Shown here: piece after piece, positions 32,559 to 60,974 of the stretch
Position numbering within the stretch: the stretch's first letter is position 1
Layout: the number at the start of each line of letters is the position of its first letter
Assembly: GCF_000226115.1 (NCBI RefSeq)
Contig: NC_016461.1
Location: 2,790,001-2,854,000 of the forward strand
Length of the DNA: 64,000 nucleotides
Direction of reading: 5' to 3'
Source: Thermothielavioides terrestris NRRL 8126
Taxonomy: Eukaryota; Ascomycota; Sordariomycetes; Sordariales; Chaetomiaceae
Translations under genes and position numbers: made by a program
Notes under the pieces: generated by a model
Seen by the model: only the letters and a program-made list of their open reading frames with translations
What the model was told of the DNA's origin: nothing
Database searches by the model: none

Positions 32559-32818
32559 TATTACGGACTAGGCTATACCTAGGCTAGGTATATAGGGCTA
32601 CGCCTAGGATCTATAGCAGTCCTATAACGGGCCTGCCACGGGCCCGAGGCGGACCCGCCTCGCGCCTAGAATAACATCGGCCCAAGCCCCCTACACGTAA
32701 GCCCCTAAAAACTCTATACGCGAGAACCGTAGCCTATACTTCTCCTTTTCTCTCCTTAAGGTAGTTGAATAGAACATCGTGCGCTTATCTGCAGACGCTA
32801 TAAGGCTAGCACGTTACA
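32559..32818 (+). repeat. 3' LTR of nested Gypsy element
   Basis: 260 bp matching 25262-25521. It begins TATTACGGACT, so the terminal TG has become TA by a RIP-type change, and ends ACGTTACA. Confidence 0.92.
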
Positions 32819-35800
32819 CTTGACTCGCTATACAGTGGTTGTAAGGCCTAGGCTGTCGATATAGAACCTAAGCAACTCTACACTTAGATATCCTATATAT
32901 AACTTAGCTAGCGAGAGAGCGATATTCTTATTGGCGAAGAGGCTGAATATTATATCTAGATAGCGTATATAATCCTTGGCATTATCTAAGTAGATTACAA
33001 TGTTATCGATAAAGGCGTATATATATATGAAATACAGCCTTAGAAGCCGGTCTATAATACATTAAACGTACGCTAGAGAGTTATAGTAGCCTATTAGGCA
33101 CACTATAGGCTGCTCTACGCTATGTAGACTGATTAGAGTAAATCGATCGTAGTATAGAGAATAAACGCCAAACTAGTAGAAAAATAAAGTAGTATCGATT
33201 ACTATAATAAAGTGCTTACTATACAATTTAGCAATAATTTCTAACTATAAAGGTAGAGGGTAGTTATTAGGCACCGTCATATAGTTTAAACTCCGTAGAT
33301 CGATTACAACTCTACCTTGAAGTTCTCTATTGCAGCTAGGTCGCTATACTACGAATATAGGGTATACGAAAGGTATAGCTCGGGTAGCCTAGATTATACG
33401 TCCTTGCTTATATAAGCTATCGAAGGTCTTGTCGAGTACCTTACGATCCTTTCTACTTAGCGGATAGGATTAGGCGTTGACCTTTTGATTTTGCTAGCCC
33501 TCTACCAGTGGTACGCATATCAGTTCGTCTAGGCTCTGCTAGACGAGGCCTTTATCCTTCTAGAGGCTAGGATATTGCTCGATGACTTTAATAAAGCGGT
33601 TGGCGATATTAGGATCTTTGGCATATATATATACTCTATCTTTAGTAATAATCTCAGATAGGCTCAAATCTATATAAAGGCCTAAGGTGGACTGCTTTTC
33701 TAGAACAAATAGCTTGCCTACTAGTTCGTTAGGGTCATTGGCCTATACTAGTTGGAAGATATAATCGCTTATTAGCGTAGTAGAATCAGTATCGTTAAAC
33801 TCGTCTATAGAGACGGCCTTTACGAGGTTAATAGCTAAGGGCATCAATAACTTGTCGTAGCTATACCGAGCTACGGCTATAATACAGTCATCGAACATAA
33901 ATTCACTATTAACTAACATGACTATAGCAGACTACGCTACTAAAGAAGGAGGTTCAATATCTATAGCTATAGCTAGCGTAGCCATCGTAGCTATCGCTAT
34001 ACTGGCCACTAGCGTTGTTAGGGCAGAGGTCTAGGAACACACTAGGAAACCGCTGTCCTCGCATTCGCAGATCTTGCCTACTAGATATCGCTTTAAAATC
34101 TTAATAATGCTGTGCAAGGTGTTCTTAATAGCAGCTACTTTGACGGTCTTGGCCATCACCACTGTATAGTAAACGGCTAGGTGCTCCGAGTGGAATATAA
34201 AGGATCGGCCCTTCGGTAGAAGCTTATATTCGACTAGAATCTCCGCTTCTTAGTTGGGCAAAAGTATAATAGTACGTATAGTTTTGACCTTATGTACGTA
34301 TAGCGTGGAATGTACGTTGATAGCGAACAGGATAGTAAATTTAAGGGCTTAGAGGTCAACCTTTTTCGTATTATAGTCGATCAAGGCTCAGTAGCTATCC
34401 AGGAAGTCATTGCCAAGTAGTAGATTAGGTCCTAGGGAATCTACTACCTAGGCGGAGTAGGTAAACTTATATAAAGTGGGCTTCCCATTCTCTATACTAG
34501 CTAGGAAGATAGTAAAAGTGGCCTATTGCGAGAGGGCTAGCTTCTTATCGTTAACACCTATCACTTTGCCCTTATAGCGCTCGATAGAGTAGTTAAGCAG
34601 GTTCAACAGGTTGTAGCCAATGATTGAGCAACTAGCTCCTAGATCGAGGTATACTTCTAGTTTATCGCTATCTTCCTTTATATAAGCAGCGATACAGAGG
34701 TACGTATAATTGCCTAAAGGGCTATCGATACTATCGTTCAATTCCGGAGCTAGGGCTTCCTTGACTTAGTACACTATAACTTCGGGGGTCTCTAGCTCGT
34801 GCTCAATAGCCGTTTTGCCTACGGGTTCTATAGGTTCGAGACCATCGAGCCCTACTAGGTGGCGAAAAATGCTATTCTTTACGTCCTTGCAATGCTTCAA
34901 ATAGCAGAAAAGAGCGTTGCGTAAACCTAGAGTAGTAGCACAATAGCCATAAGTACAGTGTTTAGACGTAGCTTGGTTAGCTATATAGTTCTTCTAGATA
35001 TACCTTGGACCTATACCCTTACAAGCCTTGATATACTAGCGGACCTCTGACTTAGCTTAGAAGGTCTTATAGCACTTATAGTATATAAGCTCCAAGTTGA
35101 TAACTATATATACAATCTCCGACTTGGAAGACGAGACGGAGGCGCTAGAAGTAGTAGAATAGTCCAACGTAGTATCTAAGGTATTAGCTTCGTTCTCGGA
35201 TTCAGGATCGCTGGCGAAATATATATAGTCGTAGGGTTGATCGTACTTATAGTCGTTACAACGATCCCTCTGGTCGTCGCGCCAATGTTTCCGATTATTG
35301 TAGCGGTAGTTATCCTTCTTATAGTTACGGTCGTAGTTGCGGTCGTAGCGATTATAGTCTTGGGCCTAGCGCTCGTCCCAATCACAGTTAGCTAGGCGGT
35401 AGTAGTCGCCGCTATAGCGATAGCGGTCCTTATAAGCCAAGCTTCGAGATTTATTAGCCTAATACCAAGGTGCTTACTTTGCCTTTTCTTCCTTCTCCTT
35501 GCTACTTAGCTTCTTCTATACGTTGAGATACTTCTTCGTAGCCACTAACTTCAATATAGCTTGCAATTGCTCCTATTCGTATAGGTATTGATCAAGCGAG
35601 GTGAAAAACTAAGGGTGACGAATACAACGCTAAATGTTCAGATCTATATATTCCTAAATTTGATATATAGTGCTTTACTAGTTAGAGCTATCTATATTAT
35701 TGTTTATTATATACACCTAGCGTAGTTTACATTTAATAAACTCTATAAAGGCTTCTTCGTTAATAGTGATATCCTTGAGATATAGGAACGTAGTATTGAA

Positions 35801-37796
35801 CTTCTTTATAGCTACTATTGAATCTAGCTTAAAGCGCTTCCTTAGAGCCTCTAGTATCGCCTTAAGGCCTTGCTCTTTAAGAAAATGACAGTAGCTATTA
35901 GAGATTCCTTTGGACTACCAGGACTAGGCCCTGCCTTCGAGGAGCGTAGGAAACATTTTAACGATCTATCGCTTAATAGATCTATCGTCGTTATCCTTAA
36001 TAAAGGTCTTAATATGGGCTTGAAAGCGATAAGCATCAGTATAGGTAATAGTCTTGCCTTCGCGAATCACTCCTAGACTGTTAGGATCTAGGTAGAACAG
36101 GTCGAAGACTCCAATGTCCTCGCACTTAACCTTGAATTCGGTTTAGCCTACTATATAGCTAGAGTCGTAAGTACCGTTATAGTACTAGCGGCTATTGGAC
36201 ATTAGGCTATCGCTTCGAGGGTTTGGTCAATAACGTAGTTCCGCCTAACGTAGGCTGCTATAAGCGAGGTTATATTATAAGCCGATAGCTATACCTTCTT
36301 CAGGGATCGGGTACACAGTTTGAATAGGTATAGGCACAGATTGTACAGGCGTAGCCTAAGCTGGTAGATAAGGCTATACCAGCTAGTGAGGCTATGCTAG
36401 ATACGTAGATGCCTACTAATGCAAATCCGAACCGAGATACAATATAACCAGTGTAGTTGTAGCTAGCTATGCTAGAGGCGTTGGTGGAAGACGGTCGACC
36501 AGCGAGGCCTAGGTCAGCTAGGCCTACCTATAGTAGTCCTCCATCACCACACACTGCCTCGGCATACGCTATAGGCTGTTCAAAGTCAAATTGTCGAGGC
36601 CTAGAACAGCGGGCTAAGGTTGAGGCTAAGCTTAAGGCGGTAGAATACCCATATATAGGCGATCCATAGCTTCCTAATAGGCCTGTCGAGATGCCTAGGA
36701 ATTGGTTCTCGCAGAGCAAGCCACAGATTGTCCTTCAAGATATATAATATAGGAGTCTATCTAGCGTATAGTCTAGTTCAGTTCCTTTATATTCGCCTAG
36801 ATTACTTTAGCTACTCAAGACGTTAAGGTGTCCGTCAACTTGATTTAACTATATTCTAGGCGGTCGATATATCGATTTATATATTCTATAGTCCGCTTGT
36901 TTCGGCCAAGTGTTGTAGGCTTCGAGGGAGTTTCTTCGTCGTCAAGATAGTTAAGTCCTTCGTTATCAAAGTCCTCAGATAAGTCTTGCCTAGTGACGAA
37001 GGATGCCTTAGCTTCCTATATATCGTAGTCGAGAGTTGTGCTCTCCCAGGTATCGTAGCTCTAAGCGGCTAGGATAGGCGGGTACTTAGCTTATATACGG
37101 TGGGTATTACAGGCTTCGGCTACCCAGTATTCTCTGCCTAGATCGCACTCTTTGACTTACTCTATCAGAGGTATGGTCGGAGCTATAGATGATTGAGCGG
37201 TAGCGGGCAGGTTCTCAGGAAACTCGCCTAGCATATCTACATCCTTCGGGTCCTACGGCCTGGAGGGCTTTTCCAGGCCTTTAGCCGCTTTGGGAGGCAT
37301 ATTTCACATCAGCCAACGCAACCAACAGACCAACCAAGCGACTGTACAATAGTAGTGGATATAGATTGGAAAGGGGCAGCCAACAACCGTATAAAACATA
37401 GTGATAGCTTGGGATACTAGCTATATACTAGCTAGGGGACTCCGTAGCGTCGAGGGTATCGTCGAGTACAAGTAGGACACAAGCGCTCAGCGAGCCTCGG
37501 ATCAGGAGGGAGCAGAGTTGCTAGGATATAGCCTTCTTGACTGTATAGAACACAGGGGCTACAACGCTCGGCAAGAGACAGGAGGTGTAGTGGCCGTCGA
37601 AGTCCTTGTCGGACCCGACCGCTTGGTGGAGATGGTTGCAATTAACTTCCATATAGTACACAGAGGCCTCCTATAGATAAGCTGTCGCGAAAGATCGTAG
37701 ATACTCGAGTAGTTCGATCGAATTAAAAGGATCCGATCGATCAAATAGATTGAAAAGGATAGCGGTCAGCGCGATCGAATAGTCGCAGCTACTATT

Positions 37797-38015
37797 TGAT
37801 ACGGTGGCACGCAATCGTAGTATACAGATACAATGGTGGAATAAGTGATAATGGATCTAAAGTGGGGAGGCTCCCTCCACTGCCAAGATATTCTTAGCAG
37901 TGTATAGGGTACGCATAGGCCATGTAGGGCTAACCCTGTATAGAGCAACCCTAACCCAGAGCCTTCCCAAATAGGGTCATCATCTATTTATATACATGAT
38001 ATGGTTCTGGTATCA
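37797..38015. repeat. LTR, right copy of the outer Gypsy element
   Basis: 219 bp, TGATACGG...GGTATCA, followed by the GGCAC duplication at 38016-38020. It is the upstream LTR in the minus-strand reading direction. Confidence 0.93.
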
Positions 38016-39907: not shown

Positions 39908-42188
39908 ATGTCGACTATACAGCAGCTGAAAAATTTCATCCGTCTTGGTGGGTTGCCCCTCCCGGCTCGTGACTGGCGCCAACATTCGGCTTGCAGCCGG
40001 CGGACGGAAGGGCTGATCTGAAGATGATCGTCGCGATAGGCAAGCAAGCACGAATGGCCGATGAATCGACGCGAACCAAGCGTGACCCCTCTCCGCCGAC
40101 CCAGGACTCGCAAGCGAAGACGACCATGACCTCTCGAGCTACGGAGCCCGCCCTTGCGGCCGCCTCCGCTGAGCACGGTCATGCCGCAGAATACCAAACC
40201 AAGCGAGAATCGCTCCAAGCGGCGGAGGGAAAAACGGCGCAACACAAGCGGATTCCCGACGACAACATCGCGAAACTTGTCGCCGAGGAGAACGAAAGCA
40301 AAAGAAAGTTCCCCGATTACCCGGGGCTTGAGCGGTGGGAACTCATCGAAAAGATGGGCGACGGCGCCTTCAGCAATGTCTATCGGGCGAGAGATCGCGA
40401 GGGCAGCGCTGGCGAAGTTGCAATCAAGGTTGTCCACAAGTTCGAGATGAACAGCATACAGGTATGTGATGGGCGTGGGGACACGAGCTTGTTTTAGCCA
40501 ACCCCAGTTTCCTTGCTATGATCCGTCTTCCATTCCTGTCCGAGTTCCCTTTACCGACTCCAGCTAGAGCCATAAACATCTCCATCCCGACTTTAAGCCA
40601 AAAGTACCGAAAGCCGCAGAGGTGCGAGGAATCTCACTTTTCGTCGCATATGAAGGCGGCATGTGCCTTACAGACAGCTTGCTCCAGTCACTCCTCGAGG
40701 CTGTCGGTGGCTTGTTTTTAGACGCCACACCCCCCCCCCCCGAGTCAAGCGCCGGGATCGCTGCGATCAGCTTTGTGCACGCTGATGAGTGCTAACCACC
40801 GCTGCTGCAGAGAGGAAACGTCTTGAAGGAGGTGCAGATAATGCGCCAGATCGATCACCCAAATATCATCAAACTGATCGACTTCCACGAGTCGCGCCAG
40901 TACTATTACATCATCCTCGAGCTGGCACCAGGTGGAGAATTATTCCACCAGATTGTGCGCCTGACGTACTTCAGCGAGGATCTAGCGCGCCACGTCATCA
41001 CTCAGGTAGCGAAGGCGCTGGAGTATCTGCACGAAGAAAGAGGGATCGTTCACCGGTAGGGAGTAGCCCCTTCGACATGCGGCGACTTTATCTGCTGACA
41101 ACAACACTGGTAGCGACATCAAGCCAGAGAACATCCTCTTCGTCCCCATACCTTTCATCCCCTCAAAACACCCCAAGCCGAAGCAACCCGGGGATGAAGA
41201 CAAGGTTGACGAGGGTGAATTCATCAAGGGGGTCGGCGCTGGCGGAATTGGGCAGATCAAGATTGCCGATTTCGGGCTTTCCAAGATCGTATGGGACACC
41301 CAGACCATGACACCTTGCGGCACTGTCGGGTATACGGCTCCCGAGATCGTCAAGGATGAACGGTACTCCAAGTCGGTCGACATGTGGGCGCTGGGATGTG
41401 TGTTATACACGCTGCTGTGCGGATTCCCGCCGTTTTACGACGAGAGCCTGCAGGTGCTCACCGAGAAGGTCGCCAAGGGCCAATACACCTTCCTGTCCCC
41501 GTGGTGGGATGACATCAGCCACTCGGCTCGGGACTTGATCTCGCACCTGCTCTGCGTCGACCCGGAGAAGCGGTACACGATCAGGGAATTCCTCGCCCAC
41601 CCGTGGATCCGCGAGCCAGGGCAGACGCCCCGAGACGAGAGGAAGGCGATATCTAGCGACCAAGCCCTGCGCGCCTTCGACGCTGGCAAGCTTGTGGAAG
41701 GCGACAAGCGCTACGACTACCGGTCGCCCGCTGCCATCAACCTACGTGAGGTCTTCGATGTGGGTTACGCTGTGCATCGCCAGGAGGAAGAGGGCAAGCG
41801 GCGCAGACAACTGGGTGCTAAGGCCGGTGTGTCGCGCCTCGGCGAGCTCGATGAAGACGAGGAGTTGGAGGACGAGGACGGCGGCGTGGCGTACGTGCGC
41901 AAGGCCAATACCAGCCACAGCTCTACGCAGCAGCTCGAGCAGAGCATGCGCAACGCCCAGATTCGCGACCAGGAACACCGCGGGCGCGACCGCGAGAGGA
42001 AGGCGCATCCGCCCTCGGCCGCGGCGGCCGGGCAGCGCGGGTACGGCCAGCACTCGGCGGCCGTTGCCGCCGCCGTTAGGCAGCAGGTGCGGGAACGCAA
42101 CCGACAGAAGGGCGTGTTCGAGCTCAACCTGGAAGGCGCCACGCTGCTAGGGCGGCGGGGCATGAAGCCGGCTGCGAGGGTGGCGTAG
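39908..42188 (+). CDS. RCK2: RCK2/Srk1-type CaMK-group Ser/Thr kinase
   Basis: Four exons, 39908-39947, 40040-40461, 40811-41055 and 41114-42188, encode 593 residues. The tiny first exon (MSTIQQLKNFIRL) splices to GKQARMADE, a fungal N terminus I recognise from this family. Kinase motifs: GDGAFSNVY near 120, VAIK Lys143, HRDIKPEN with Asp237, DFG Asp288, then CGTVGYTAPEIV. Between HRDIKPEN and DFG there is a long insert (PIPFIPSKHPKPKQPGDEDK ... GVGAGGIGQIKIADF), the hallmark of RCK2/Srk1 kinases. These act below stress-activated MAP kinase (Hog1/Sty1) in stress response and translation control; that role is known for the family and inferred here. The C terminus has an acidic patch and a basic coiled-coil-like stretch. 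Intron 2 is long (349 nt) with a C-rich run. Confidence 0.88.
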
Positions 42189-43641: not shown

Positions 43642-44541
43642 TCAAGCAGCTGCTACGATCGCCTTCACAGTTCCGTCCGTGAGGATCTCATTTTCCTCCA
43701 CATCTCCTTCTCCATCGCCAAACGCATAGGGAAAGAAAGGCGGGTCCCCAACCTCCAGCTCGCCCTCGTCGTCGCCATTGTTTAGCAGATCCGGGAGATA
43801 GGTTCTCAGCGTGTCGCCACCCGTGTACACCTTCTGGCGCACCCCCATGCGGTACTTGATCTGGGTGCACTGGTACGCGAAAATGAAGTCGTTGGCGCTG
43901 TCGAAGGAGGAATGGTCGTAGCTGGCCTGCGACAGCCGGGCTCCGACGCCCGCGCTGGCAGTGATGCCGGTGCCGACGGTGCCCGGCCAGCGGGCGTTGA
44001 CATCAAAGCCGGCGCCGCTATCGGACGACGTGGCCGAGACGGCCTCCATGCGCGCGCCCCGCGCGATCCGCACGCCCGTGACGATGTACAGCGGCGGGTA
44101 CGCGCGGAAGAACCAGCTCGACCGGCGCTTGCTGTCGATGTACTCGCGCACCAGCGGGTGCCGCAGCACCGCCGCCACGTGCCGGCTGTCGAAGCTGGTG
44201 GCCCGGTCGACCAGCGCGTCGAAGTGCCACCGGAAGGACGCGCCCTGCATCTCGGCCGCGCGCAGCTCCGCGTCGGCCGGGATGCCCAGGGTCGAGACGT
44301 TCGCCCACAGGTTGAAGCAGCGGGCGAGGTGCGAGTGCATGCCCATCGTCACCCCGTTGACTTGGTTCTCGGCGACAGACATGCCCTCCATGACGGGGGG
44401 AGGCGCCACGGTCGACGCGAACAGGGGGTTCTGCGGAAGGCGGGGGTCGGTGAGCACCTGGCCCAGCTGCAGGCGGATGTCGTCGGGCGGGAAGCTCGTG
44501 CACTGGATGAGGATCCATGTACGGGGATCGTGGGACTTCAT
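43642..44541 (-). CDS. Fungal gasdermin-like pore-forming protein (putative cell-death executor)
   Basis: A single exon of 299 residues, divergent from the neighbouring subtilisin-like gene. I recognise the overall pattern of fungal gasdermin-like proteins: an N-terminal half with FPPDDIRLQLGQVLTDP, a Trp/Phe-containing helical middle (WHFDALV...VREYIDSK), the strand LYIVTGVRIARGAR at about 149-162, a Gly/Ser/Ala-rich amphipathic beta stretch to about 205, then DFIFAYQCTQIKYRMG near 215-230. The tail is acidic (NNGDDEGELEVGD, GDGEGDVEENE). In fungi these proteins permeabilise the plasma membrane after a neighbouring protease removes a short C-terminal part. Similarity is judged from memory, so the assignment is probable, not proven. 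Length and single-exon structure fit. It could otherwise be an unrelated fungal protein of unknown function. Confidence 0.62.
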   Translation of the reverse strand: MKSHDPRTWILIQCTSFPPDDIRLQLGQVLTDPRLPQNPLFASTVAPPPVMEGMSVAENQVNGVTMGMHSHLARCFNLWANVSTLGIPADAELRAAEMQGASFRWHFDALVDRATSFDSRHVAAVLRHPLVREYIDSKRRSSWFFRAYPPLYIVTGVRIARGARMEAVSATSSDSGAGFDVNARWPGTVGTGITASAGVGARLSQASYDHSSFDSANDFIFAYQCTQIKYRMGVRQKVYTGGDTLRTYLPDLLNNGDDEGELEVGDPPFFPYAFGDGEGDVEENEILTDGTVKAIVAAA

Positions 44542-45218
44542 GGTGTCGGCAAGGCGGAGGGGAGTTGTGGTAGTGCTCAGTGATAGTATGTTTGTCGTGC
44601 TTGTGGCGGCGGTAATGTCTTGCTTGAAGAAATATTGCTGCTCCTGCTGCTGCTGCTGCTGCTGATGACGATGATGATGAACCTCGAACGGGCAAGGAGA
44701 CGCCGAGTGGGCGCCCCGGGCTTAAATGTCTGGTCTTAGCAGGCTGCCTCCCTCGAGTAGCCGCCCATTGCGATGGAGGCGGCCGCCCGACACATTTGTA
44801 ACCAACTGATGCAGGTGACCGAGGCGCGGGCTGGCAGAGTGCATGCAGGGCTGGGCTTAGCCGACGGGTTATTCTTAGCCGGGGACATGCAGGAGATGAT
44901 CACCAGGTTCAGAGGCGAGGCCATGTACAGTGCGATATCGTGCAGTGTGCCCTGCGATGGATGAGGGGGGGAGAGGGAGGGGACGGGAGGGGTGGCCCTG
45001 ACAGCAGTGGGCGCAGGGGAATGAGCCAGGCTCTCGCACACCCTCACTCACAGGAGAGTTGGAGTCCTCCCGTTCGGCTGCGACTCGTATCAGTTCTGGT
45101 AGGGTCCCGAATCATTCAATAATATGCGCCCCCTCCTCCTTACGTCGTGGAGAGTCCCTCACCACCCTGCAGTGGCTTGCGATGCTCCAACCCCGGAGCT
45201 CAGTTGATTTTGGGAACC
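44542..45218. promoter_or_regulatory. Shared upstream region of the divergent gasdermin-like and protease genes
   Basis: 677 bp between two divergent start codons, so it probably drives both. A (CTG)n/(GAT)n microsatellite sits at about 44,640-44,680, in the likely 5' leader of the gasdermin-like gene. No specific factor site could be assigned. Confidence 0.5.
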
Positions 45219-48200
45219 ATGGCGCTCTCCTGCTACCGGCAGCTCGAAAACATCACGCTTGGACAGATCTTGTGCACAACAGCGCCTGTTTTGGCCGGCT
45301 TTGCGAGGGAGGCCGCGGGTCTGGCCGCCCAGGGTCAGGGCGCCGCCCAACTCGGTTGGAAGACAGACCCAGAAATGAAGGCGCGTTCTCTAAAGGCCCT
45401 GGCCGAAGACCTAGAGGCCATTTACTCGAGTGTTCGATTTCACAGCAGTCCAACTTCGGCCGATAGGTTCGCGATTCACAGCCTGCTCTGGAACGAGGTA
45501 TTCCGTGAAGTCATCAGCCTTATCCCTCAACAAGCACTCGACAACGCAATCGACAAACACTTTTCCCAAGTCGGACAAGGCAGTCGCGAAGACTTCGACG
45601 ATCAAGTTAGTTGCCTTGTGCTGTAGGTATTCATCCTGGGTTCTGCACAGAGGGCTAACGCCCATCGTCCGCACCTGGGCAGGTGGACAGCATCATACAG
45701 TCAGAAGTCGGGCGTGTGGCCACAGACCCCGTCTGCAAGTTATTCTGCTACCTCCGATGGACTCGGGAGCTCAATGAAACCACAACCGCGGGGATAGGCC
45801 GAGATCTGTTCCGCACGGATCTTGGGACCTACGGACCTAACTCTCTAATCCGGAACGACGACAAGGAGTGCCAACAATCAACCGGCTTGCGCACGCACGG
45901 GCAGGGCGAATCAGAGTACCCGACCTGGAGTCCAAGTGGTTGCGAGATCACCTGCAACAACCTAAAAGCACTTCTGAGCGCCGTTAAGGAGACTTGGGGG
46001 TCAAAGGCTACCAGAAGCCGCGATCTCAACAGTCATAGCCTAGCGGGCCGCAGCTCAGGGCGCCTGTCTCAGATTACGTCGGTCAAGCTGCTCATGGAAG
46101 GCAATTGGAGTGAAAGCCCATCAGGGTCTCACTGCTTCAGGATGCTCTTTGGATGTCCCCAAGGACTGCAAGAGACAGTAGTGGACACCAACAGAATGAG
46201 GTAGGTAACAAGTGCCGATTAAATTAAATCATTATGCCTCTGTTCTAACCACCACCTTGGGACGCAGGACCGAGCAGTGGAAAAGCGCCCGAGATTTTCA
46301 CCTTCTCAGCGCACGGATATACAACTGGGGCGTCGGCAACAATGGAGACATTGGTGCCGACCCTTCGGCGCCTCACGACCGCAGGCATCACCCAAGCTGG
46401 GACAGCGCGCTGGAGCTTAGCCTCGCCGAGGTCCTGACGGAAGAGCTGCATCACCAAGAAAAAATGGTACTGTGCTGGCATATCGCTCGCGCTGTCCTGG
46501 ACCTGTTTGCCACCGGCTGGCTGGCTCCCGACTGGGGCATCACGGACATAGTCATCTTCGGTTGGGCGGACGGCAACTCCCGCCATCTTGACTTGCGCCA
46601 CCCCTATCTCTCGGTCGACTCCATCGACGACGCGGCAGCATGGCTGGATCGGGCTCACATATGCTCGCCAGATCTGGACCCCGTACACCCCTTCCCGCAC
46701 ATCCTGAGCCTCGGCGTTGTGCTCTTGCAAGTGCTTCTCGGGGACAGGCTTGAAAAGCTCGGCCTGGGCGGAGATGAGAAAGGCGACATGCGCCGTAAGA
46801 CGGATCAGGCTCACAGACTACGGTCCGAGTGCGAGCTCCGGTTTCCGTCGAGGTGGCCGATCATGGAGGCCGCCAACCTCTGTATCGAATTCCGCGCGTC
46901 TTCGTGGGGACCGGCGAGCCTCGGCAGTACCGTTGCCACGAGAGCAAACCTCTTGCGGGCGTGGAAAAATGTCGTTTCCTGCCTCGAACGAGGGGTCCTG
47001 GATAACCAACGCCTTCCTCAGACGAACTTCGGTCTCTCCCGGTTCTTGGAGGAGTCGCACGCGCCACGCAAATCAGTGCTTGGAGACCTCGAGCAGTTCA
47101 TGTGGCGGCTGCAGTTCATCAGGAAACACAAGGCAGATGTAACCCAAGATCCCTCGGCCGACCATCCGATTGGGAAAACTGGAAAAACCGAGATAACATT
47201 ACCGATCATCACCAAGTCTCCCAAACTTACCCGGAGTCTCGAGCATTCGCCGAGCCTCATTGCCCTAGCGTACGCCCACCGTCGCCACTGTCCACACTGG
47301 TCTCTCTTATATGCTGACTTGCCTATCCCTCACAGTAACAAGTTCCTGGCGCCGTTAAGGGCCATCTCGAACGGTCTGCGAGCGATCGGTGACAGGGATA
47401 TGGACGGTGCCTTCCGGCCCGATAGGGTGTGGGACAACATGGTCCGCGTCGCCATCCTGGACACGGGCTGCAACTTTAGCCAGCCGCTCATGAAGGGGCT
47501 CATCGTGGGCCACAACGGCGGGGATAGCGAGATTCCAAAGACCCAGCGCCGGCCAGGCATCGTAGGGTGGAAGGACTTTGTTCGCGGCGAGGCAGCCCAG
47601 CCAGGAGAGCCCCTCAGTGACACGGCGGAAAACCAACACGGGAGCGTTATGACGTACCTGTTCACGCAAACCATGTCGCATGCCAAACTCTACATTGGGC
47701 GGGTCATGGAGCACGCGTCAAGCTCAGACCCGCTGACCCCTGAAAGGGTTGCCGAGGTGACCACTCCCGCCCCATCGGTCCAGAAGATAAGAACAAAACG
47801 GAGGCTGACAACTTTATACCCAGGCTGCCGAGTATGCCGTCAACGTGTGGAAGGCAGACATCATCTCGATATCCATGGCCATCGACGCAACGTCGGAGCA
47901 TGTCCGCGAGCGGCTCGACGCGGTGAGCAGGCGCGCGCTGGTCTTTGCGGCGGCGGGCAACAACCGCGGGCCGGACCGGAGCCCGATCGCGTACCCGGCG
48001 TCGTCGGGAACGGCCATCTGCGTGCACTCGCACGACGGCCACGGCAAGCCGTCGGAGTTCAGCCCGGACCCGCAGCCCAACGCGCCCAACTTCCAGGTCA
48101 TCGGCCAGGACCTGCGGGTCCCCAGCCTAAGCCAAAGCGTCCACGGCAGCGAGGAGGTTGTTCAAGGCACGTCGTGCGCCACGGCCATCGCCGCCGCCAT

Positions 48201-48537
48201 CGGCGCGCTCGTGCTCGACTTTGCGCGCGCGTACGCCGCCGTCGAAACGGAGAAGCAGCCCTCCCTGGCCGACCCCGAGGGGCCCAAGGACTACATGTCG
48301 TGGATCCTGCACCTGCTGGTCACGAAACACGACCTCCTCAGAAAGGAGCAGGTCATGAAGCAGGTGCTGTACTATCTCATGACGACGACGTCGCTCCGCG
48401 CGTTCGGCAAGTTTAACATGGTGAAGCCGCAGTTGCTGTTCCGCGTGGGCGAGCCCGGCTGGATAGAGCGCGCGGCGGTGCAGCTCGGGCAGGAGCTGGA
48501 GAAGGTCCATGAGAATCGTGATCCCCAGCGTTTTTGA
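45219..48537 (+). CDS. Large subtilisin-like (S8) protease with N-terminal helper region
   Basis: Exons 45219-45605, 45683-46200, 46268-47756 and 47824-48537 give 1,035 residues; a further in-frame 66-nt intron (47270-47335) is possible. Residues 1-300 are a helical N-terminal domain (MALSCYRQLENITLGQILCT). Residues about 300-600 include SLAEVLTEELHHQEKMVLCWHIARAVLD and HILSLGVVLLQVLLG, resembling the DUF7580-type region of fungal NLR-associated proteins. The protease follows: VAILDTGCN (Asp700), QHGSVMTYL (His759), FAAAGNN (oxyanion Asn) and GTSCATAIAA (Ser915), so the triad is complete. No signal peptide is seen, which fits a cytosolic regulator rather than a digestive enzyme. Fungal gasdermin-like genes are known to sit beside subtilisin-like genes (HET-Q1/HET-Q2 in Podospora); this neighbour arrangement is the same. 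Confidence 0.85.
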
Positions 48538-48990: not shown

Positions 48991-49493
48991 TTGTCGTTTC
49001 CAAACACCAGGCGAAAGTGGGTTTTCCAAGCACCAAGAGAAAACACAGGTTTTTTGCAGAAACCAAAAAACAGATTCTACAACAGTAGCTCACACAACGC
49101 CTGCGTGCAGTATAGAGAGCTTTAAATATACATATTCGATGCCGTAGAATCTAAATCCACCGTCAGATTGATGGCGCGCAAATGCGCGACGTGATATTGA
49201 TAGGCGTAAAATTACAGGTATTTTACACAAAATGCAGGGGTTTCTAGTGTATCTTACGGTATTATTACACTCATCATTATCTTCGCGCGTATTGCGCGCA
49301 CCATTAATTTGACGGTGGATTTGAATTGTACGGCATTGAATATATATATATAGACATCTCTATACTGCGCGTAGCCGTTGTGTGGGCTAATATTGTGGAA
49401 TCTTGGTTTTGGATTCTGCGAACAACGTGTGGAAAAAGGGTGTGTGTTGCAGACTTCCTGGACCCACTTTCGCGTGGTGTTTGGAAACGACAA
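48991..49493. mobile_element. Foldback / MITE-like element with long imperfect inverted repeats
   Basis: The two halves are reverse complements over about 250 bp each, meeting near 49,240. The outer ends match best: TTGTCGTTTCCAAACACC at 48,991 and its complement ending at 49,493, each followed inward by CGAAAGTGGG. Inner matches include AGTATAGAGA, ATGCCGTA, AAATCCACCGTCA and GCGCGCAA. The middle holds a short hairpin of its own (GTAAAATTACAGGTATTTTAC). It has no coding capacity. No target duplication longer than 2 bp (CC) is seen, so the superfamily cannot be assigned. Confidence 0.7.
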
Positions 49494-50419
49494 CCAACGT
49501 CAAAGCGCTCTAGGGAGCATATCCGTTCCTTTGTCGAGTGTACAGCTGTAACCAGCCAGGTGAGCCTGAGGAGCCCGCCACAGTGCCCCGAATCGATAAG
49601 TATCACTCTGGCTTCGTCCGTCGCTTCCGGCGACGCACTGCTGTGGCATCACTACCCTCGTCTTGCGCCATCATCTTTCGCACCTGACTGGGAGAACGGG
49701 CTCGATGGGCAAGTCGGTGCTGGATCTTGACCCTCTGCTTGAGGAAGCTCTTGAGGAAGCACCACGCCCTGGTTTCGAACGCTTTTCGCTGCAACAGACG
49801 TTCCATTCGGTTGTGTGCGGAGAAGGCTCAGCAGAACCGGCGTGTTGGGCCATTGCAAGCGCGACCCGGCAGGGGGGTGCATCGTTAGGCGCCTCGAGAC
49901 TCGCCGAACTCTGTTGTGATTCGTGGTCTTCCGCAGCCAGGAAAGCCCGAGCCTGATGGCGCGTGGAGGGTGGTCGCTGGTTTCACCCGACATCACCATC
50001 ACAGCCACAGCCCCCCGGGGTCGATGCCGGGGGGCCAGCCCTCATTTTCAGCCCGGCGCTTCTGGCAGTGAAAGTTCCCCCAAAAGGATGAACTCTAAGC
50101 GCCCAGAGTTTCCCATCCATGAAACACGTGTTAGTGATAGCAAACTGCTTTTTGCAACAACTTGCATGCAACCAAGCGGCTGGCCCCTGCTTCGGCTGTG
50201 GAAGGTTGACATTGGTGCATACCTGACGCAGGATGCCTTTCTATAAATATCAGGAGGTAGCCGTCGTGCGTGCCTCCGGCTCTCGCGTTTGTTCACTCGA
50301 CCACGCTCAAAACGATCAGTGATTATTTCTTGAATTATTGCATGAATTCGGCCGGTCGAGTTCAAAGGCACGAGCAGCCAGAATCGGAGAGCGAAGTCGA
50401 CTACCTGTACACAGACAGC
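49494..50419. other. Intergenic region upstream of the dynamin-like gene
   Basis: Several short open frames on both strands, none with domain motifs. Probably contains the promoter and 5' leader of the dynamin-like gene. An upstream in-frame ATG at 50,342 could extend that protein by 26 residues. Confidence 0.4.
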
Positions 50420-53400
50420 ATGGGCTCTCTCGAGACTCCGCCGCCGCCGCAGGTGGATCTTGATGCTGAGTCGCTGGCGCAACTCAACGACCCCCAGGCG
50501 AAGGCGCTGCTCGACACCATTGACAGTCTCCGGGAGATCCATGTCGGCGACATCGTCAACCTGCCGCAGATCATCGTCGTCGGCGACCAGTCGTCGGGCA
50601 AGAGTTCCGTGCTGGAAGCCATCTCGCGCGTGCGCTTCCCCGTCGACGGCGACTTGTGCACGCGCTTCGCCACGGAGCTCGTTCTGCGCCGCGCCAGTGA
50701 GACAGCCGTGCAAGTCAGCATCCAGCTCGCGGACAGCGCGCCCGGGCCGGTTGGGCAAGGATCCGTCTTGGGCCAGCCATTCCATAGGGAGGCCTTCGAC
50801 CGGGAGGCCTTGCCCGACATAATCCGCGAAGCCAAGACGCGCATGGGCGTTTGCGAGGGGAGCGCCAAGAGATTCTCACGGGACATCTTGCGGGTCGAGA
50901 TTTCCGCACCAGACGTGTACCCTCTGACGCTGGTCGACCTTCCTGGCATTTTCCACAGCGCGACGGCCGACCAGAACCAGGCCGACAAGGAGATCGTCGA
51001 CCAGCTGGTGGCGAGCTATATGAGCCAGCCGAAGAGCATCATCCTCGCCGTCGTGGCCGCAAACAATCAGCTCGCCAACCAGGCGGTTCTGCAGGTGGCT
51101 CGGAAGCACGACCCGTCCCGCGAGCGCACCATTGGCGTCATCACCAAGCCCGACCTGGCCGGACCTGGGTCGGCTAACGAGCGCAAGTACCTGGACCTGG
51201 CCAAGGGCCTCGAGAGCATGCACAAGCTCACCCTCGGCTGGTACGTTCTGCGCAACCCGTCCGAGAGCGAGAGGTCTTCGGGGGTTGACGCCCGAGATGA
51301 TATCGAGCAGCGCTTCTTCCGGTCCGGCGCCTGGAGCTCCATCCTGCCGGCGAACAGGGGCGTCGAGAGCCTGCGGAAGCGTCTGAGTAAAGTCCTTCTC
51401 GACCACATCAGGACCAACCTACCGGGCCTGATCCAAGATATCGAAGCAAATCTGAAGAAGCGCCAGGAGGCGCTGGATCGTCTTGGCAGCTCGCGGTCGA
51501 CGCCCGAGGAGCTCCGCTCGTACTTGCTCGGCATCGCCGAGGACTTTCAGTGGCTGGCCCGCGACGGGATTGAGGGTCGGTACAGCAATGAGGACTTCTT
51601 TGGGGGCATCGAGGAGCAGAAGACAAAGCTGCGCGCCAAGCTGCGCAACATGAACCGCGCTTTTGACGCCGTCATGAATCTCAAAGGCGCCCGATACAAG
51701 ATCCTGTGGGACAACAGGGGTGCTGCTGACGAGAATCCGGGCGATGAGGATGGCGACTACGACGAGAACGACGAGAACGACGACTACGACGAGAACGACG
51801 AGAACGACGGGAACGACGACTACGACGAGAACGACGACAAAAACGATGATGATGTTGAAGACGCACCAAAATATCCAGCCTACCTGCGGAAACTGATGGA
51901 CGAATACGACGTGCCACACCCAGAACCCAAACGTGAAGCAGAGCTCAATGCGGAGCTGCAGCTGCAGGCCTCGTTCAACCTGGGCCGCGAATTCCCCGGC
52001 GAAGCCAACAGCGAGCTCGCCCTCCAGCTGTTCAAGAAGCAGGCCAAGCCGTGGAAGAACATCGCCTGGACTCACCTCCGGAAAGTGTTGAAGGTCTGCG
52101 AAGAGTTCGTTGAGGAGGCCTTCCGGCACGTCATCGGCACCGACGAAACCACCTTCAGTGCTGTCCTGAGCGACTGCGTGGACCCCTTCTTTGCCGAGCG
52201 GGAGGAGCTGCTACGTAAAAAGATGCAGGAGCTGCTTCTTCCCTACGAACAGAGTTACGGGTTGCCACTCGAGGACGAGTTCAGCCTCAAAATGGAGGAA
52301 AAGACGCTCCGCCGACTGGCCGGTCGGCTCGCCGATCACCTTGGAGAAGTCCACCCTGAACTGTTCCGAAACAAAGCGCGCCTGAGCCGACAGATGCTCC
52401 AGAAGGCCGTCCGTAACCTGGGCCAGGTTCGGCGGGACGAATTTGCCGCCTCGAGAGTGATTGATATGGCCATCTCTCATTATGAGGCGAGTTGAAAAGC
52501 CTCCCTTGATTGCCCCTTCCGCGTTTCTCTGAAGCCCGCCATGGACTATCTTGGCTAACGCCGTACAAACATGCCAGATGTCACTGCGGACCTTTGTCGA
52601 CAACATCATCAATCTCGCAGTCGAGGGCTGTCTGGTCTGCGACCTTCCGAACATCCTGACACCGAGGAAGGTCGACAAGATGAGCGCTGACCAGCTGACG
52701 GAGCTGGCCGCCGAGTCGGACGAGGTGCAGAGCCAGCGAATGGTTCTCCGGAGAGAGGTCCGCATCCTCAGGGAGGGCCTGCGCAGGTGCCAGAGGAACA
52801 GGCCGAGAGAGCTGACAGGTGGGTCAGTGACATTCAACACAGGGAGCGCCGGTCTTTCGGGAGGCTCAGACCCCGGATGCCGAGCCGCCGCTTCCACCAT
52901 GACTCACCGGCCTCCGGCTGCTGCCGGTTCCGGACAGGAGTCGCCGAAAACAGATACCTATTGAGGGCAGAGCCTTGTTCAGGACTAACAGTCGTCTCAG
53001 CACCCGCCGTGCCCTCCACGCCAACGGCTCTCGCGGGGAATCCGACGCGGCCTTCAGCGTCAGATAGCAGTCAGCAGCAGGCAGTGACCACAGGGTCACA
53101 ACCCCGTCTGTCACCGAGTCCAGCATCTCCCGCGTTAACACCCGCTGCGGACACTCAGGCCCCTGCAAAGCCCTTCCCCTTCCTGTTCCAGTTTCCAGCT
53201 ACCACCAGCGCCCCTCCTCAGACCTCCGGCACGGGGTCTATCTTCAGCCATTCGGGAGGCACCACATCTATTTTTGCTGCCGCTTCAGCACCAGCAGCGG
53301 CCTCCGCTCCGCCCGGAACTAGCCTTTTCTCGTCCTTCAAGTTCAGCGACGCCCTCAACGCTTCAGAGGGAAAACACCCCCCTGCCCATCCTCCCGCTGC

Positions 53401-53925: not shown

Positions 53926-54102
53926 GCTCCTCATTCTCCCCCCTCCACCCCCGCCACCGCCGCCACCAACCAGTCATTCCTGTCGCCATCCAACGGGGAG
54001 CATGCCCAAGAGCTGAAGGAAGAGTGGGAATTTTCGCAGCCCTCTGTTCTAGAAGAAGAGGGGGCTGCGAATCTCTTCTGGAAGAAGAGACGGCTGCGAT
54101 AA
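53926..54102 (+). CDS. Possible terminal exon of the dynamin-like gene
   Basis: After a clear branch and acceptor (GCTAACTAAC at 53,896, then GGCTTGGCAG) a frame with good codon bias reads APHSPPSTPATAATNQSFLS, then QELKEEWEFSQPS, and ends in a basic run before a stop at 54,100-54,102. No donor upstream gives exactly this phase: GTGCGT at 53,766 leads to a different, poorer frame. So either the donor is missed, or the gene ends at 53,773. Confidence 0.35.
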   Translation, partial: APHSPPSTPATAATNQSFLSPSNGEHAQELKEEWEFSQPSVLEEEGAANLFWKKRRLR

Positions 54103-54763
54103 TCCTCACTTTTTCCTTCAGCCCTCGGGTAATACCTATTCAGGACGCTGACAAGCTGAGATATGCCGGGATGTGAGCATGTGCCGCTGCTGGACACGTC
54201 GGGCGCGACAGATTGCGTGCGACTCTTTGCTGGTGGCTGCTACAGGGATGGGTTATAGGAGCGGGTAATGTATGCCTGCGCACAGGACAGTTGGCAGATG
54301 CGGTCCCCTGAGGAGTTGTGGCTTAAGTGGATGATGGAAAGCGATAGGGTAAAGATGAGTAATGTCGTATAGGGGCTGGGATGGCTAGGTAGTTGGGTAC
54401 CACGGATCGATGGGTTGTAAGTGATGGGTATGTACAGTTCAAGTGAGGGCAGAGACTTGTAATTGTATGTAGGATAGGTGCTTGGTCCGTTACATGTCGA
54501 ATTGAATACCTATGGTAACTTCCTGTGATTGTGCCATGGATAGATTACTTTCGTCGGCGTGGCACAAACGAATGACGGAAATAGGAGGCATCCACCTGGG
54601 GAGCTAGCGGTGACCTCTCGAACAATCAGCGGGGTACCTAGCCATTGTGACCATGGGTCTGCCCGGATTGTAATTGGCAATACACAACCCAATTGCTGTG
54701 TATATGTACTCCACAGTGCAGTGACTCCAGAGCGGGCGCGCCAAGTGCCGACGTCCTAGATTT
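54103..54763. other. Intergenic flank left of the Copia element
   Basis: Host-like sequence with no supported gene. It ends at the GATTT target site (54759-54763). Confidence 0.4.
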
Positions 54764-54982
54764 TGACAGAGCTACTACGCTGGATAGAGACAAGGAAGCT
54801 ATCACGAAGTGCCTAATATACAGAGACGGCGATCAATGATGGTGTTGTTCGTTGTTGTTGATCAAAGTGTATGTAGAAGAGGGCTACTCTGGGCATCTAG
54901 ATCTATAGCTCTAGTGGATCCTAATTACGGCAGTATGGCCCGTGGGTGCCGAGCCCCTAGTATTGAGGCCTAGGTTCTGATA
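54764..54982. repeat. LTR, left copy of the Copia element
   Basis: 219 bp starting TGACAGAGC and ending TCTGATA; the terminal CA has become TA by a RIP-type change. Confidence 0.92.
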
Positions 54983-57900
54983 CACCCCCCTAGGTCGAGC
55001 TATAGCTTTGGCCTGTTTACTGTATTTAGTAATCTTGATGCTATCACTATCCTTATAATCTTCCTAATTCGGTTGTTCTATAGTGTTGAGGTCTTTCTAT
55101 CGCCTAGATCCTTCTAAGTGCCTACCTATCTTAATTCTATACGCTTAAGTAGTAAACTAAACCTTCTTTTTAGCTATAGCTATTGGCTTGTTCGCTAGTT
55201 GTTCTGTCTTACGTACCTAGTTGGTATATAGTTCGATTAGGTACTTAATATTAATTAGATTGTATATAGCAATGAACTGCTTATAAAGCTCTAGGCTTAG
55301 CGCCTTTGTTAAGCTATCTACTAGTATTTCCTTAGAGGGTATATATTCCACTTTAATCCTCCTATTCTACGCTTCCTAATATAGCTAGTAGTTGTAGATA
55401 TTAATGTACTACAACTTAGTCTATAGAGCAGCCACTTTAGCTATAATTAGCCTAATCGTCTAGCGGTTGTTACACTAAATAGAGAGGTGGTAGTCGTTCA
55501 GTTCGATCGATAGCTCCTTTAATAGGCGCTATAGGAATATACCTTCCTTAGCTACCTACGCTAGGGCGAGGAGTTCTACCTCTATAGTTGATATAATAAT
55601 AGTATCTTATTTACTAGCTTGCTATATAATAAACCTACTAAATAGTATAATTATATAACCTTATAAGCTCTTATAGTCAAGGCTATTGTTAGCGAAGCTA
55701 GTATTGCTAGCTACAATTAGGATATCGCTATTGCCTAGTTGAAGTGCTAGGAACTATATATTATAGAGGTAATATAGCACTCTGTTAGCTACCTTATAGT
55801 GTTCTAGTTTAGGGTTCTAATTGAACTATACGAGCTATAACGTTGCAAAGGCGATATCTAGCTATATATTAATAGCTATATATAGAATAGAGCTGATCTT
55901 CCTTTGATATAGGCCTACTGAACCGTTGATTACGATTTCCAAGTATAGGAGCAGTTCCTTTGTATCTATAGGCGTTTTCTCTTTCTTCTAGTTTTATATA
56001 AGCTAATAGATCTTCTTGATATACGCTGTTTAGCTAAGCTATACTAGGCGCTTTATTCGATTGTAGTAGACCTCTATTCTAAAGAACCAATGTAGGTCAT
56101 CGCTACCTATAAGTTTATAATAGGCCCTTAGGCCGTTGATCAGTTCTCCTATACGCTTATAGTCTCTCTTACGGTATATAAGGACGATGTTATCGATATA
56201 GAAGAAGATGATAATGCCTTTGTTCGTTATAATACAAGGTTCCTAAGGTATAGCTTGGAAACCTAGGCTCTTAAGCGTATTGGTTAGTGCCCTCTACTAG
56301 AGGAGGGGCGACTACTATAGGCTATATAGAGCCTTCTTTAGCTTTAATACCGTTCTAGGCTTGCGATAGCCCTGTGGTATATATATAAAGACATCCTTAT
56401 CGATCTCTATATTTATAAACGTATTGATAGCATTAAATTGCTTTAGTTTGAGGTCGAAGTGTACTATAGTTGCAAGGACTGTTTTAAACGATTATATAGC
56501 TAGAGTTGCTATATAGTTCTCTTCCGCCAAAGTCCTCTATTGCTAATCGCTATAGACAACTAGTCTTACTTTACATTTGACGAGATGCCCTATTTTATTA
56601 AGCTTATAGATATATACCTATATACTATCAAGGATCTAATTGCCGCTAACTTGATTGTTGTAATAGCTAACCTCCTCTTAGGATTATTTGATCTTATAGC
56701 TACGTAGGTAATTACATTTAGCCTCTAGAAAAAGCTCTCCTAGTAGATAGTCCTTAAGGTCTATATACCATTTTAGCTCTAGCAGTAGCTATAACTAGTA
56801 GATAGTATTTAGCTTATTTATTTGCTTTAGCTAGGCGACCTTTTCGTATATAAGCTTTCTTTCTTCCTCCTTCTATTTAGCTAGGTAGGTTATCTTCCTA
56901 ATTAGGCGCCTCGCTTCCGCCTTAGGACCTAGCGTTCCTATATAGAAGGCCACCTACTATAGCTCGAACTTATACTTAGCTTCAGTTCTAGGTACGCTAG
57001 GGGCGCTCTTCCTCTGTTTAGAGGAGGGTAGTAGAGAGCCAACGAAGGCTACTACTATAAGTATAGCTAGTAACGTTGGCGGTAGTGTTAGATAAAGGAA
57101 CTTAGGGAAGGTCCTAGAGGCATCGCCCTTTACTACAATAGTATCTAGGGCTTCTTCGATAGTAGTGATTACTTCTGCTTGTTCAGTCTCTAATAACGTA
57201 CCTATCGTTATAGTAGACTCCTCTTCTTCTTCTTCTTCTACTATAGGCAATAGTTCGTTATCGCTTTTATAATTGGCATTATCTATATGTCTAGCTTAAA
57301 GCTAGCGTTTCAGCTCTTTAAGGTCCACCTAGACAAGGCTTTAAGCGATTTTATATTTATTGCTAGAGAACACTTGCCTCTTATCAAAGATGATATCGTA
57401 GGTATAAATCACTTAGTTAGTAGATAGGTTTTAGATACAATAGATATTTAAAGAGTTATATCCAATAAGATATCCGACCTAGGCTTTTGGTTAAAGGCGC
57501 TCTAGGCGCTTCTACTTCTTCTTTATAGTATCCGTTATTGCAAACGCCTTACAACTATAGACTTTTAGGTGGCCTTGGTACAGCTTATACTCTAATGCGT
57601 TGAGGCTATCTCTAGTAGCCAAGGAGCTATAAAAGCGCTTTAGTAGTATTCTCTATTTAGTAGTTAAACGAGGTATTCTATTGTATAGATATACTACTAC
57701 TCTAGTGATCTTTAGCCACAGTTGCCATAGTAACTACGTACCGTTGGCCATTGCTCTAGCCTTCTCCTTAATTATATCTCCTAAGCGCTCGACGCCGCTA
57801 TTCTAGGTAGGGGTATCAGGTATAGAGGGCTCTATCTTAATACCCTACTTGTATACCTAGTTGGTAATAATACTTGCCTAGGTGAACTCGTTATTATACT

Positions 57901-60750
57901 CTAGAACTTTAATCTATAGTTTGTACTACGTTCTAAGGAACTATATAAGGTACTTGATAGCTACTAGGATATTGGCCGCCTTATAGTTGCGTAGGTAGTA
58001 ATCCTATATAAGATCTAAGTAACGGTCTATTGCTAGGAGCAGGTATTTGAAGTGCTATCGGCCTTCTTTATAAGGATGAAGATCTAGGGCGATCCTCTCG
58101 CCTAGGCCGAAGTCAAATGGCTATAGTATTTAGCTAAGGCAGCGTTTTGACTTGCTAAGGCTATAGCCATTACACTTAATAGTTGGGATACCCTTGATTT
58201 AGCCTCCTTTTAAACAGTTGACAAAGTGTTCTAACGCTCTAGGGCCTATATAGCTAAGGCGTAGATACTACGTTATAGTATCTGCTATACTCTCTATATG
58301 CCTTATAAGGCGCTTAAGCTTCTATATTCTAATTACAAAGGCTATAGGCGTATAGTCCTCTAGTATATACTTAAGGACATATTGTTAATAAAGCTTAGTA
58401 GTGTATCCGAGGAGGGAGTGATTATACCGCCTAAGAGGGTAGTTTAGAGTACTCTATAGGCTATTGTCCTACTAGATCCCTCACTAGTTAAGTTGTTCTA
58501 GCAACACGATATTATAAACGAAAGTTGGGCAATATATAACGTTGTATAGCGTAACGATCGCAATACCCTTGTTGTTCTATAGTTTAATATCTATCTCGCT
58601 ATAACTCTCGATCTAAATAGGGTACTTGCCTACCTAGATATACTTATCTAGCGCTACTAGTCTTAGAGAGCGTTTAAACCTACTAAGGTGGTTAGTAATA
58701 TAAATAGTTAACTCTGAATCTAGGATCACTAAGTTAATTAGGGGATATAATTCTCTTGCTTAGTATATTATTTAGATCGCTATAAAGCTTGTTAAGCATT
58801 TGCCTATAGCTCGCTATATATATCTACGAGCTATTTAATAGCTAAACAGGGCGATATTGCTTAGTCTATTTAAAGGGGTAGTATTGTTGTTCAATCTGTT
58901 TAGAGCTATACTTAGCTCCTAGGCAGCCTAGTTGGCATTACGCCTAGCGTTCTAGTATTTAGGAGCAATGCTTGGCTCCTAGGCAGCCTGATTGGTATTG
59001 CGCCTATTAGTATAGTGTTTAGTGCCTTGGCTAGTATTATACCTATTGGTATAATCTTGATTCTAGTGTTTAGTGCTTGTATTTTGTACCTATTGGTATA
59101 ATGCTACCTAGTTCGATAGCTACAATGCCTTCGAAGGCGGTGCTGCCTAAACTATGGCTAGTCAATATAATTTATCGCCTCTATTGCTTTTAGAGTTGTA
59201 GTTGATTGTAGTTCTAGACCTCTTTATATAGAGCCTATTCGCTTTAGCTTATAAGGAGGAATTGCTCCTTAGATTCGCTTCTATATATGCCTTAATGTAA
59301 GGTCTAGCTTCCTAGCTATCTAGTATATTCTTTGGATATAGGTAGTAATATAGCTTAGTAACGTAGAAGTGATTATAAGTATAGTACCTAGGTATATCTA
59401 GAGACTATACTATAGGAATAGTAGACGTAGGAGCTATACTGAGCTTCCATTTAGCCTATAATCTTCCGCCTTTAGCTCCCTCTTTACAAGAGCTCTAATA
59501 AGCGTAGTCACCCTATTCTTCTTAGTAGTTAGTAGTATTGTTCTCTTTCTTATAGGCTCTGTATATTGTAAAGGAGCCTTTACTAACGTAGCTAGGAGCT
59601 TTCTTAAGGAACAGTTCAACGCCCTTACAGACTACTATAGCGATATCTCTAAACCTAAGCCTTTTAATCTAATCTATCTAGTTCGTCTAGTAGTATAAGA
59701 CAAATATTAGGATAGGGTTTATAAGGGCCTACATTAGTTTAGTAAACTAGATACTTAGATCCTTAGCTTTAGTAAGCCCTTAGGTAGTCGATTCATCTAT
59801 TAGGTTTTCCTACTTGACGATCTACCTCTTAAACTTAGTAGCTTTTATATATATGTTCCTAGGGTACTTAAGTATATCGAGGTAGGTCTAGAGGCGCGTT
59901 TAGAGCTCGAGTTCAGTCTCTATAGTAGGTTTTACAATCTTCTTAAGGTTATAATACTACGTTTAAAGGGAGTAGCCCTTTAAGAAGTATATAGTATAGT
60001 AGTTTACTAATATAGTAGTAGTTATAAAGTGCTTTATCTAATTGAGCTAGTAGCACTAGAGCTTATACTTCTAGTTATAGTTGTTGCGCTCTTTATAAAT
60101 TATTACAACGAATATAGTAATATTGCTCTTAAGTTCCTTCTTAAAAGCCCTATATACCTCCTAGTTAGCTATATTAAGAGACTCTACTATAAGTATCTTA
60201 ATTGACAAAGGTCTATAGCGCTATTCGTCGATAGAGTAGTCGTCGTTATTGCAAGTGTAGTAGCTAGGCACAGTGACGGATTAGCGGTCTTAGCGATCGT
60301 CGTTATAGGGCGGTTGATCGCTCTAATCGCTAGCTTCTACGCTAGGAGTACAATTATAGGCTTTGTTACGAAGCGCGTTGTATACCTCCTAGGCTATATG
60401 GCGAGCCTTAGCCTTCTCGATGTCCTTTAGTTCGATAAAGTAGGCTCGGAGCTTCTGATTAATATGCTCTTAGGCTATATTGTAGGCGTTAACACTTTCC
60501 GAGGTAGGGCGGAGACGCTCCTCCTTATCTTCGAAGTAGTCTATAAGTTCGTAGTATATAGCCTTGTTGACGAACTAGCGATACTAGGGCACCTAGTTAT
60601 CGGGGCTCGCTAGAATAATATCAACCTTTATATCGGTCTTCGAAGATATAGTAGTTAATCAGAGGTATCGCTAAGGGATTTTATTGATCGTTGTATATAG
60701 AGCTATATAGTGTTGTTTAATAGGTTTTCAAAGCAAATGAGACTCTTAAT

Positions 60751-60969
60751 TGACAGAGCTACTACGCTAGATAGAGATAAGGAAGCTATTACGAAGTGCC
60801 TGATATATAGAGACGGCGATCAATGATGGTGTTGTTCGTTGTTATTGATCAAAGTGTATATAGAAGAGGGCTACTCTGGGCATCTAGATCTGTGGCTCTG
60901 GTGGATCCTAATTACGGCAGTACGGCCCGTGGGTGCCGAGCCCCCGGTATTGAGGCCCAGGTTCTGACA
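60751..60969. repeat. LTR, right copy of the Copia element
   Basis: 219 bp starting TGACAGAGC and ending TCTGACA, followed by GATTT. It is less mutated than the left copy. Confidence 0.92.
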
Positions 60970-60974
60970 GATTT

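Follow-up and report, generated by a model that had tools for sequence, protein, structure and literature searches.

A divergent gasdermin and S8 protease gene pair in Thermothielavioides terrestris as a candidate regulated cell-death module

The window analyzed here, a 64,000-nucleotide (nt) stretch of the Thermothielavioides terrestris NRRL 8126 genome (contig C5:2790001-2854000; 36.9 Mb in six contigs), holds a gasdermin-family gene on the minus strand and, head to head with it, a gene for a large S8 protease on the plus strand. An initial annotation, made from the letters alone, had presented the two as a candidate regulated cell-death module. The divergent layout it described stands by the coordinates of the start codons (44541 and 45219), and the region between them may allow joint expression of gasdermin and protease. 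The gene models, in window coordinates, are listed below (aa, amino acids).

43642..44541, minus strand: gasdermin-family gene, single exon, 299 aa (open reading frame; profile against PDB; fold match)
44542..45218, no strand: shared upstream region between the divergent start codons, 677 bp (start-codon coordinates)
45219..45605, plus strand: protease exon 1 (gene model)
45683..46200, plus strand: protease exon 2, absent from the public 794-aa protein P0126 (gene model and alignment with P0127)
46268..47269, plus strand: protease exon 3 (gene model)
47336..47756, plus strand: protease exon 4 (gene model; P0126 and P0127 support the intron before it)
47824..48537, plus strand: protease exon 5, including the stop codon (gene model)

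The protease gene model was derived from sequence and homology rather than from RNA. The reading frame shifts three times along 45219-48537, and an initial model assuming three GT-AG introns (77, 67 and 67 nt) encoded a protein of 1035 aa. Comparison with two public proteins, one from a second genome of T. terrestris (P0126) and one from Humicola hyalothermophila (P0127), revealed an additional intron of 66 nt that keeps the frame (47270-47335). In the final model, the gene comprises five exons and four GT-AG introns (77, 67, 66, and 67 nt) and encodes 1013 aa. P0126 comprises 794 residues, 793 of them identical to the window's protein, while the missing 219 residues form a single gap that corresponds to the rest of exon 1 together with exon 2. 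This region was retained because the Humicola protein aligns through it, with common stretches such as KLL.E..WS and P.GLQE, and despite the fact that residues 1-300 are just 26% identical between the two. The model presented here would add these 219 residues to the public model of the same gene.

The 299-aa protein matched no Pfam family. A first protein search with it returned six proteins, including a near-identical T. terrestris copy, and a profile built from the window protein and five relatives (the T. terrestris copy excluded) was compared with PDB, where it found nine chains at E ≤ 10. The top five rows were RCD-1 or HET-Q1 (2e-12 to 9e-4); the other four chains comprised three gasdermins of bacterial origin (0.04 to 0.47) and a ribosomal protein (0.18). 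A wider search yielded 133 proteins, and among the best 120 of these 133 all that carried an organism name were fungal, except for one labeled as a Bathyarchaeota archaeon. An alignment of 119 sequences was then used, consisting of the window protein and the others from both searches, minus P0002 (a near-duplicate), P0099, P0118, P0121, P0124, and P0125. Its profile retrieved seven PDB chains at E ≤ 10, all of them gasdermins (RCD-1 2.4e-13, HET-Q1 4.1e-7, bacterial 1e-5). An AlphaFold2 model computed from six sequences was too poor for use, and the one adopted was taken from the 119 sequences. It shows a pore-type gasdermin fold, confident over approximately residues 11-230 (block values of 76-96, except for 63-64 at residues 181-200; residues 231-240 are at 58), which matches gasdermins in both Foldseek and VIA-align, with RCD-1 as the closest solved structure and bacterial gasdermins matching as well. 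Judged by these profile matches, the protein is a fungal gasdermin, and residues ~11-230 are predicted to fold like the pore-forming part of gasdermins, including two long hairpins. The gasdermin-like identity proposed initially was thereby confirmed by both of the checks suggested for it, structure prediction and profile search, each of which pointed to gasdermins and not to an unrelated fold. The parts of the protein are as follows.

43822..44541, minus strand: predicted pore-forming part, approximately residues 1-240 (AlphaFold2 model)
44197..44376, minus strand: predicted first long beta-hairpin, residues 56-115, strands 56-84 and 87-115 (AlphaFold2 model)
43903..44052, minus strand: predicted second long beta-hairpin, residues 164-213, strands 164-183 and 195-213 (AlphaFold2 model)
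43747..43809, minus strand: poorly conserved linker, residues 245-265, putative activating-cleavage zone (low identity; analogy with HET-Q1 F238)
43693..43722, minus strand: conserved acidic tail motif, residues 274-283 (FGDGEGDVEE), putative inhibitory or docking element (identity in 5/5)

The acidic tail noted earlier is real: the net charge is -13 over residues 241-299 and +4 over the first 240, and these last 59 residues are disordered or of low confidence in the AlphaFold2 model. When the window protein was compared with four close relatives, residues 245-265 were poorly conserved, and D266, F274, G275, D280, and E283 were identical in all five; a sixth sequence (P0007) stops short of the FGDGEGDVEE motif, and no clear copy of it was found in the paralogue on contig C6 described below. 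HET-Q1 (278 aa) is cut at F238 and loses 40 residues (PMC10989679; PMC12881547), which is why we place the likely activating cut of the T. terrestris protein within the variable linker, at approximately residues 240-265. The conserved FG...GDVEE motif could serve as a latch, that is, as an inhibitory or docking element.

In the 1013-aa protease, Pfam (E ≤ 5) recognized two families and no others, namely Peptidase_S8 (PF00082) and DUF7580 (PF24476), located as given here together with the catalytic residues.

47442..48249, plus strand: Peptidase S8 domain, residues 672-918, spanning one intron (Pfam E 1.8e-17)
46416..46895, plus strand: DUF7580 (PF24476) match, residues 352-511, probable sensor or transducer region (Pfam E 1.9e-10)
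47460..47462, plus strand: catalytic Asp678 codon (alignment with relatives)
47637..47639, plus strand: catalytic His737 codon (alignment with relatives)
48172..48174, plus strand: catalytic Ser893 codon (alignment with relatives)

The protein search with the protease identified seven relatives among the 7996 candidates sharing most words, Coniochaeta and Xylariaceae proteases included. Asp678, His737, Ser893, and the oxyanion Asn822 are conserved in all eight aligned sequences (the window's among them), in agreement with the intact Asp/His/Ser triad that had been attributed to this large S8 protease. A PDB search with the whole protein gave two chains only at E ≤ 0.01, both named intracellular serine protease; this alignment covers the Asp region well and the His region poorly, and His and Ser were placed via the fungal relatives. 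The Humicola relative retrieved 31 chains at E ≤ 0.001, the best of them again an intracellular serine protease chain. The protease had also been described as leaderless, and the charged N-terminal stretch of the Humicola relative fits this description. The label "NLR-associated" for its N-terminal region found no support, as the approximately 670 residues ahead of the protease domain carry DUF7580, with neither NACHT nor NB-ARC recognized by Pfam at E ≤ 5. When a five-sequence DUF7580 profile was compared with PDB, no kinase was found, the only matches being AlkD glycosylases at E 1.1-1.2, and a literature search found no paper naming DUF7580. Identity to the Humicola protease declines from 55% over residues 671-1013 to 41% over residues 301-560 and to the 26% already given for residues 1-300; in this one comparison, the N-terminal divergence is what would be expected if the N-terminal part were a changing sensor.

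The co-occurrence in relatives that had been put forward as a check was found in two further genomes. In H. hyalothermophila, the gasdermin relative (VTK26DRAFT_9013) and the protease relative (VTK26DRAFT_9012) are each listed on a 62,207-bp contig, their adjacency being read from the consecutive gene numbers and the contig listing. For the second T. terrestris genome, gasdermin and protease alike are assigned to an 8,402,141-bp contig, a length shared by none of the examined contigs of the window's genome. The allelic polymorphism that was to be surveyed alongside was not seen between the two T. terrestris genomes compared: the gasdermin alleles are identical at 298 of 299 positions (S55T), and the protease alleles differ once (T965A) over the 794 aligned residues. 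These data bear on an alternative in which the gasdermin would be activated without proteolysis, in the manner of RCD-1, through an encounter with the product of a divergent allele once cells have fused, while the protease would serve another purpose. RCD-1 is the best match in both sequence and structure, and it is activated without cleavage (PMC12881547). However, RCD-1 proteins have 244-257 aa (PMC12881547) whereas the window protein is longer (299 aa) and carries an acidic tail, the one other T. terrestris allele available shows a single substitution, and a related protease accompanies the gasdermin in Humicola, all of which make this route of activation quite improbable compared with cleavage by the neighboring protease.

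The genome of the window was also searched for further members of both families (loci are cited by contig and position). It contains 17 matches to the S8 family, grouped into 13 loci, and seven to DUF7580; gasdermin profiles were run on 10-kb stretches around the 11 other S8 loci, four other DUF7580 places, and the C6 locus, as well as on later stretches. Four full-frame gasdermins were confirmed by profile (the window's and those at C6:3.197 Mb, C2:5.139 Mb, and C5:447 kb), a count to be read as a lower bound (at least four) given the limited reach of single-protein searches of the own genome. On C6 (3194356-3198277), a paralogous DUF7580-S8 gene is followed 0.8 kb downstream by a gasdermin gene on the same strand, in tandem. 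A third gasdermin-S8 pair lies at C2:5135867-5139719, with the gasdermin upstream of the S8 gene on the same strand; it was first met around S8 genes, and a search without that bias listed it as well, at E 0.0086. The frame between these two genes carries a GLVFFGTP motif, which we take to be of the kind present in alpha/beta-hydrolase-like fungal receptors; Pfam found no family in this frame and did not confirm the assignment. The fourth gasdermin (C5:446975-450532) shares its strand with a HET-domain gene located approximately 0.7 kb away, and neither an S8 nor a CHAT match lies within 10 kb of it. This may represent a protease-free pairing or may be due to chance, as the genome holds 35 HET matches.

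No gasdermin was found in the stretch examined by profile at 10 of the 13 S8 loci, nor did the 10-kb stretches around two CHAT matches give a gasdermin profile match. Several candidates were set aside: C1:9711140, a weak single-protein match, had no profile match; C2:6237004, C1:5276086, and C4:2806314 were weak single-protein matches only and were not counted as gasdermins; and a match at C6:3523996 (E 0.012) was not confirmed by profile. At the last of these places (C6:3523957-3524640), the gasdermin-like frame overlaps a short frame on the opposite strand with a subtilisin-like VIDTG motif and no Pfam S8 match; the two may be what is left of a gene pair.

An S8 gene lies within 5 kb of three of the four confirmed gasdermins, for which the chance probability (at least three of four, with 13 S8 loci placed uniformly over 36.9 Mb) is approximately 2e-7. 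This, together with the presence of the pair in Humicola, argues strongly against the two genes of the window being chance neighbors, i.e., a gasdermin beside an unrelated intracellular protease, an explanation that could draw on the shared promoter being putative and that we regard as extremely improbable. The reading as a gasdermin-protease pair is supported by the profile matches, the predicted fold, the co-occurrence in Humicola and the second genome of T. terrestris, and the paralogous pairs at two further loci.

Among fungal gasdermin genes, approximately 80% or more have a protease gene in the same cluster (PMC10197012, PMC10989679, PMC12881547), and two of these reviews put the share clustered with S8 proteases at approximately 60-63%. 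Because such a large share adjoins protease genes, we assign the pair to this described system, of which it is a further example. It resembles HET-Q1/HET-Q2 of Podospora anserina in combining a gasdermin and an S8 protease, and the two gasdermins are similar in length (299 vs. 278 aa) and both end in a short tail that follows the pore-forming part. In contrast, the P. anserina genes occupy a single locus as idiomorphs, a pattern not seen in the two T. terrestris genomes compared, each of which has both genes, and HET-Q2 has 388 aa, while the protease in the window has 1013 aa with a large N-terminal part. A further parallel is provided by the HET-Q2-like (Q2L) clusters, the layout described most often, in which an S8 protease with an added N-terminal region lies beside a gasdermin. 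The window has an S8 domain with intact catalytic residues and a gasdermin gene less than 10 kb away (677 bp), and we see no categorical difference from these clusters. Fusions of proteases to kinase-like domains are mentioned in PMC12881547. RCD-1 of Neurospora crassa shares the gasdermin fold and differs in its shorter length and in its activation, which allelic partners bring about without proteolysis. Bacterial gasdermins with adjacent proteases share the fold, a weak but clear sequence match and, according to the literature, the two-gene logic, yet are distant in sequence. A literature search found no paper joining gasdermin with Thermothielavioides or Thielavia terrestris.

We consider it very likely that the S8 protease, on a signal, cuts the acidic tail of the neighboring gasdermin, which then forms membrane pores and probably causes cell death. 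The N-terminal part of the protease would act as the sensor and, together with DUF7580, may keep the enzyme inactive until triggered. By analogy with HET-Q2 and HET-Q1, the S8 domain would then remove the tail of the neighboring gasdermin, and the freed pore-forming part, with its predicted fold, would assemble in the plasma membrane, upon which the hyphal compartment would die, as RCD-1 and HET-Q1 suggest. It is also conceivable that the pair is real and performs another membrane task without death, e.g., in unconventional secretion or development; secretion is raised in PMC12881547 as a role to explore for such clusters, but the characterized fungal gasdermins RCD-1 and HET-Q1 kill cells (PMC12881547), and we deem a function of this kind unlikely. 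Returning to the proposed tail cleavage followed by cell death, a more speculative extension, which we offer as possible but doubtful, is that proteins combining DUF7580 with an S8 domain constitute a separate class of receptors for gasdermin activation, not described so far, in which a fast-diverging N-terminus reads the threat, DUF7580 relays it, and the protease cuts the variable linker ahead of the FG...GDVEE latch. Gasdermins would then be plugged into several sensor types, possibly including a protease-free HET-domain protein. The pair offers a case for the least understood step, the sensing of the trigger by the N-terminal part of the protease. It is also a clean, apparently intact gasdermin-protease pair, and as T. 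terrestris is thermophilic, its proteins could prove sufficiently stable for structural studies.

The surroundings of the pair were examined as well. A protein kinase frame (PF00069, C-terminal part; window 41307-42188) adjoins the gasdermin gene, and a dynamin-family GTPase frame (PF00350, PF01031; window 50270-52495) with a long acidic Asp/Glu/Asn insert lies just past the protease. Between the protease and the latter, a large imperfect inverted repeat (window 48991-49493; 136-nt arms 81% complementary, outer 32-nt arms 97%) looks like a small transposon-type element. The pair occupies a 16-kb GC-rich island between AT-rich blocks (window 22001-38000 and 54001-62000; GC 36-47%), in which TpA/ApT is raised (up to 1.9) and (CpA+TpG)/(ApC+GpT) is low in most blocks (down to 0.28), a dinucleotide bias such as that left by repeat-induced point mutation. 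A tRNA scan of the whole window found none. Two neighboring frames (window 15024-18351) contain adenylation, carrier, and NAD-binding reductase domains (PF00501, PF00550, PF07993), a set as in alpha-aminoadipate-reductase-like or nonribosomal peptide synthetase (NRPS)-like enzymes.

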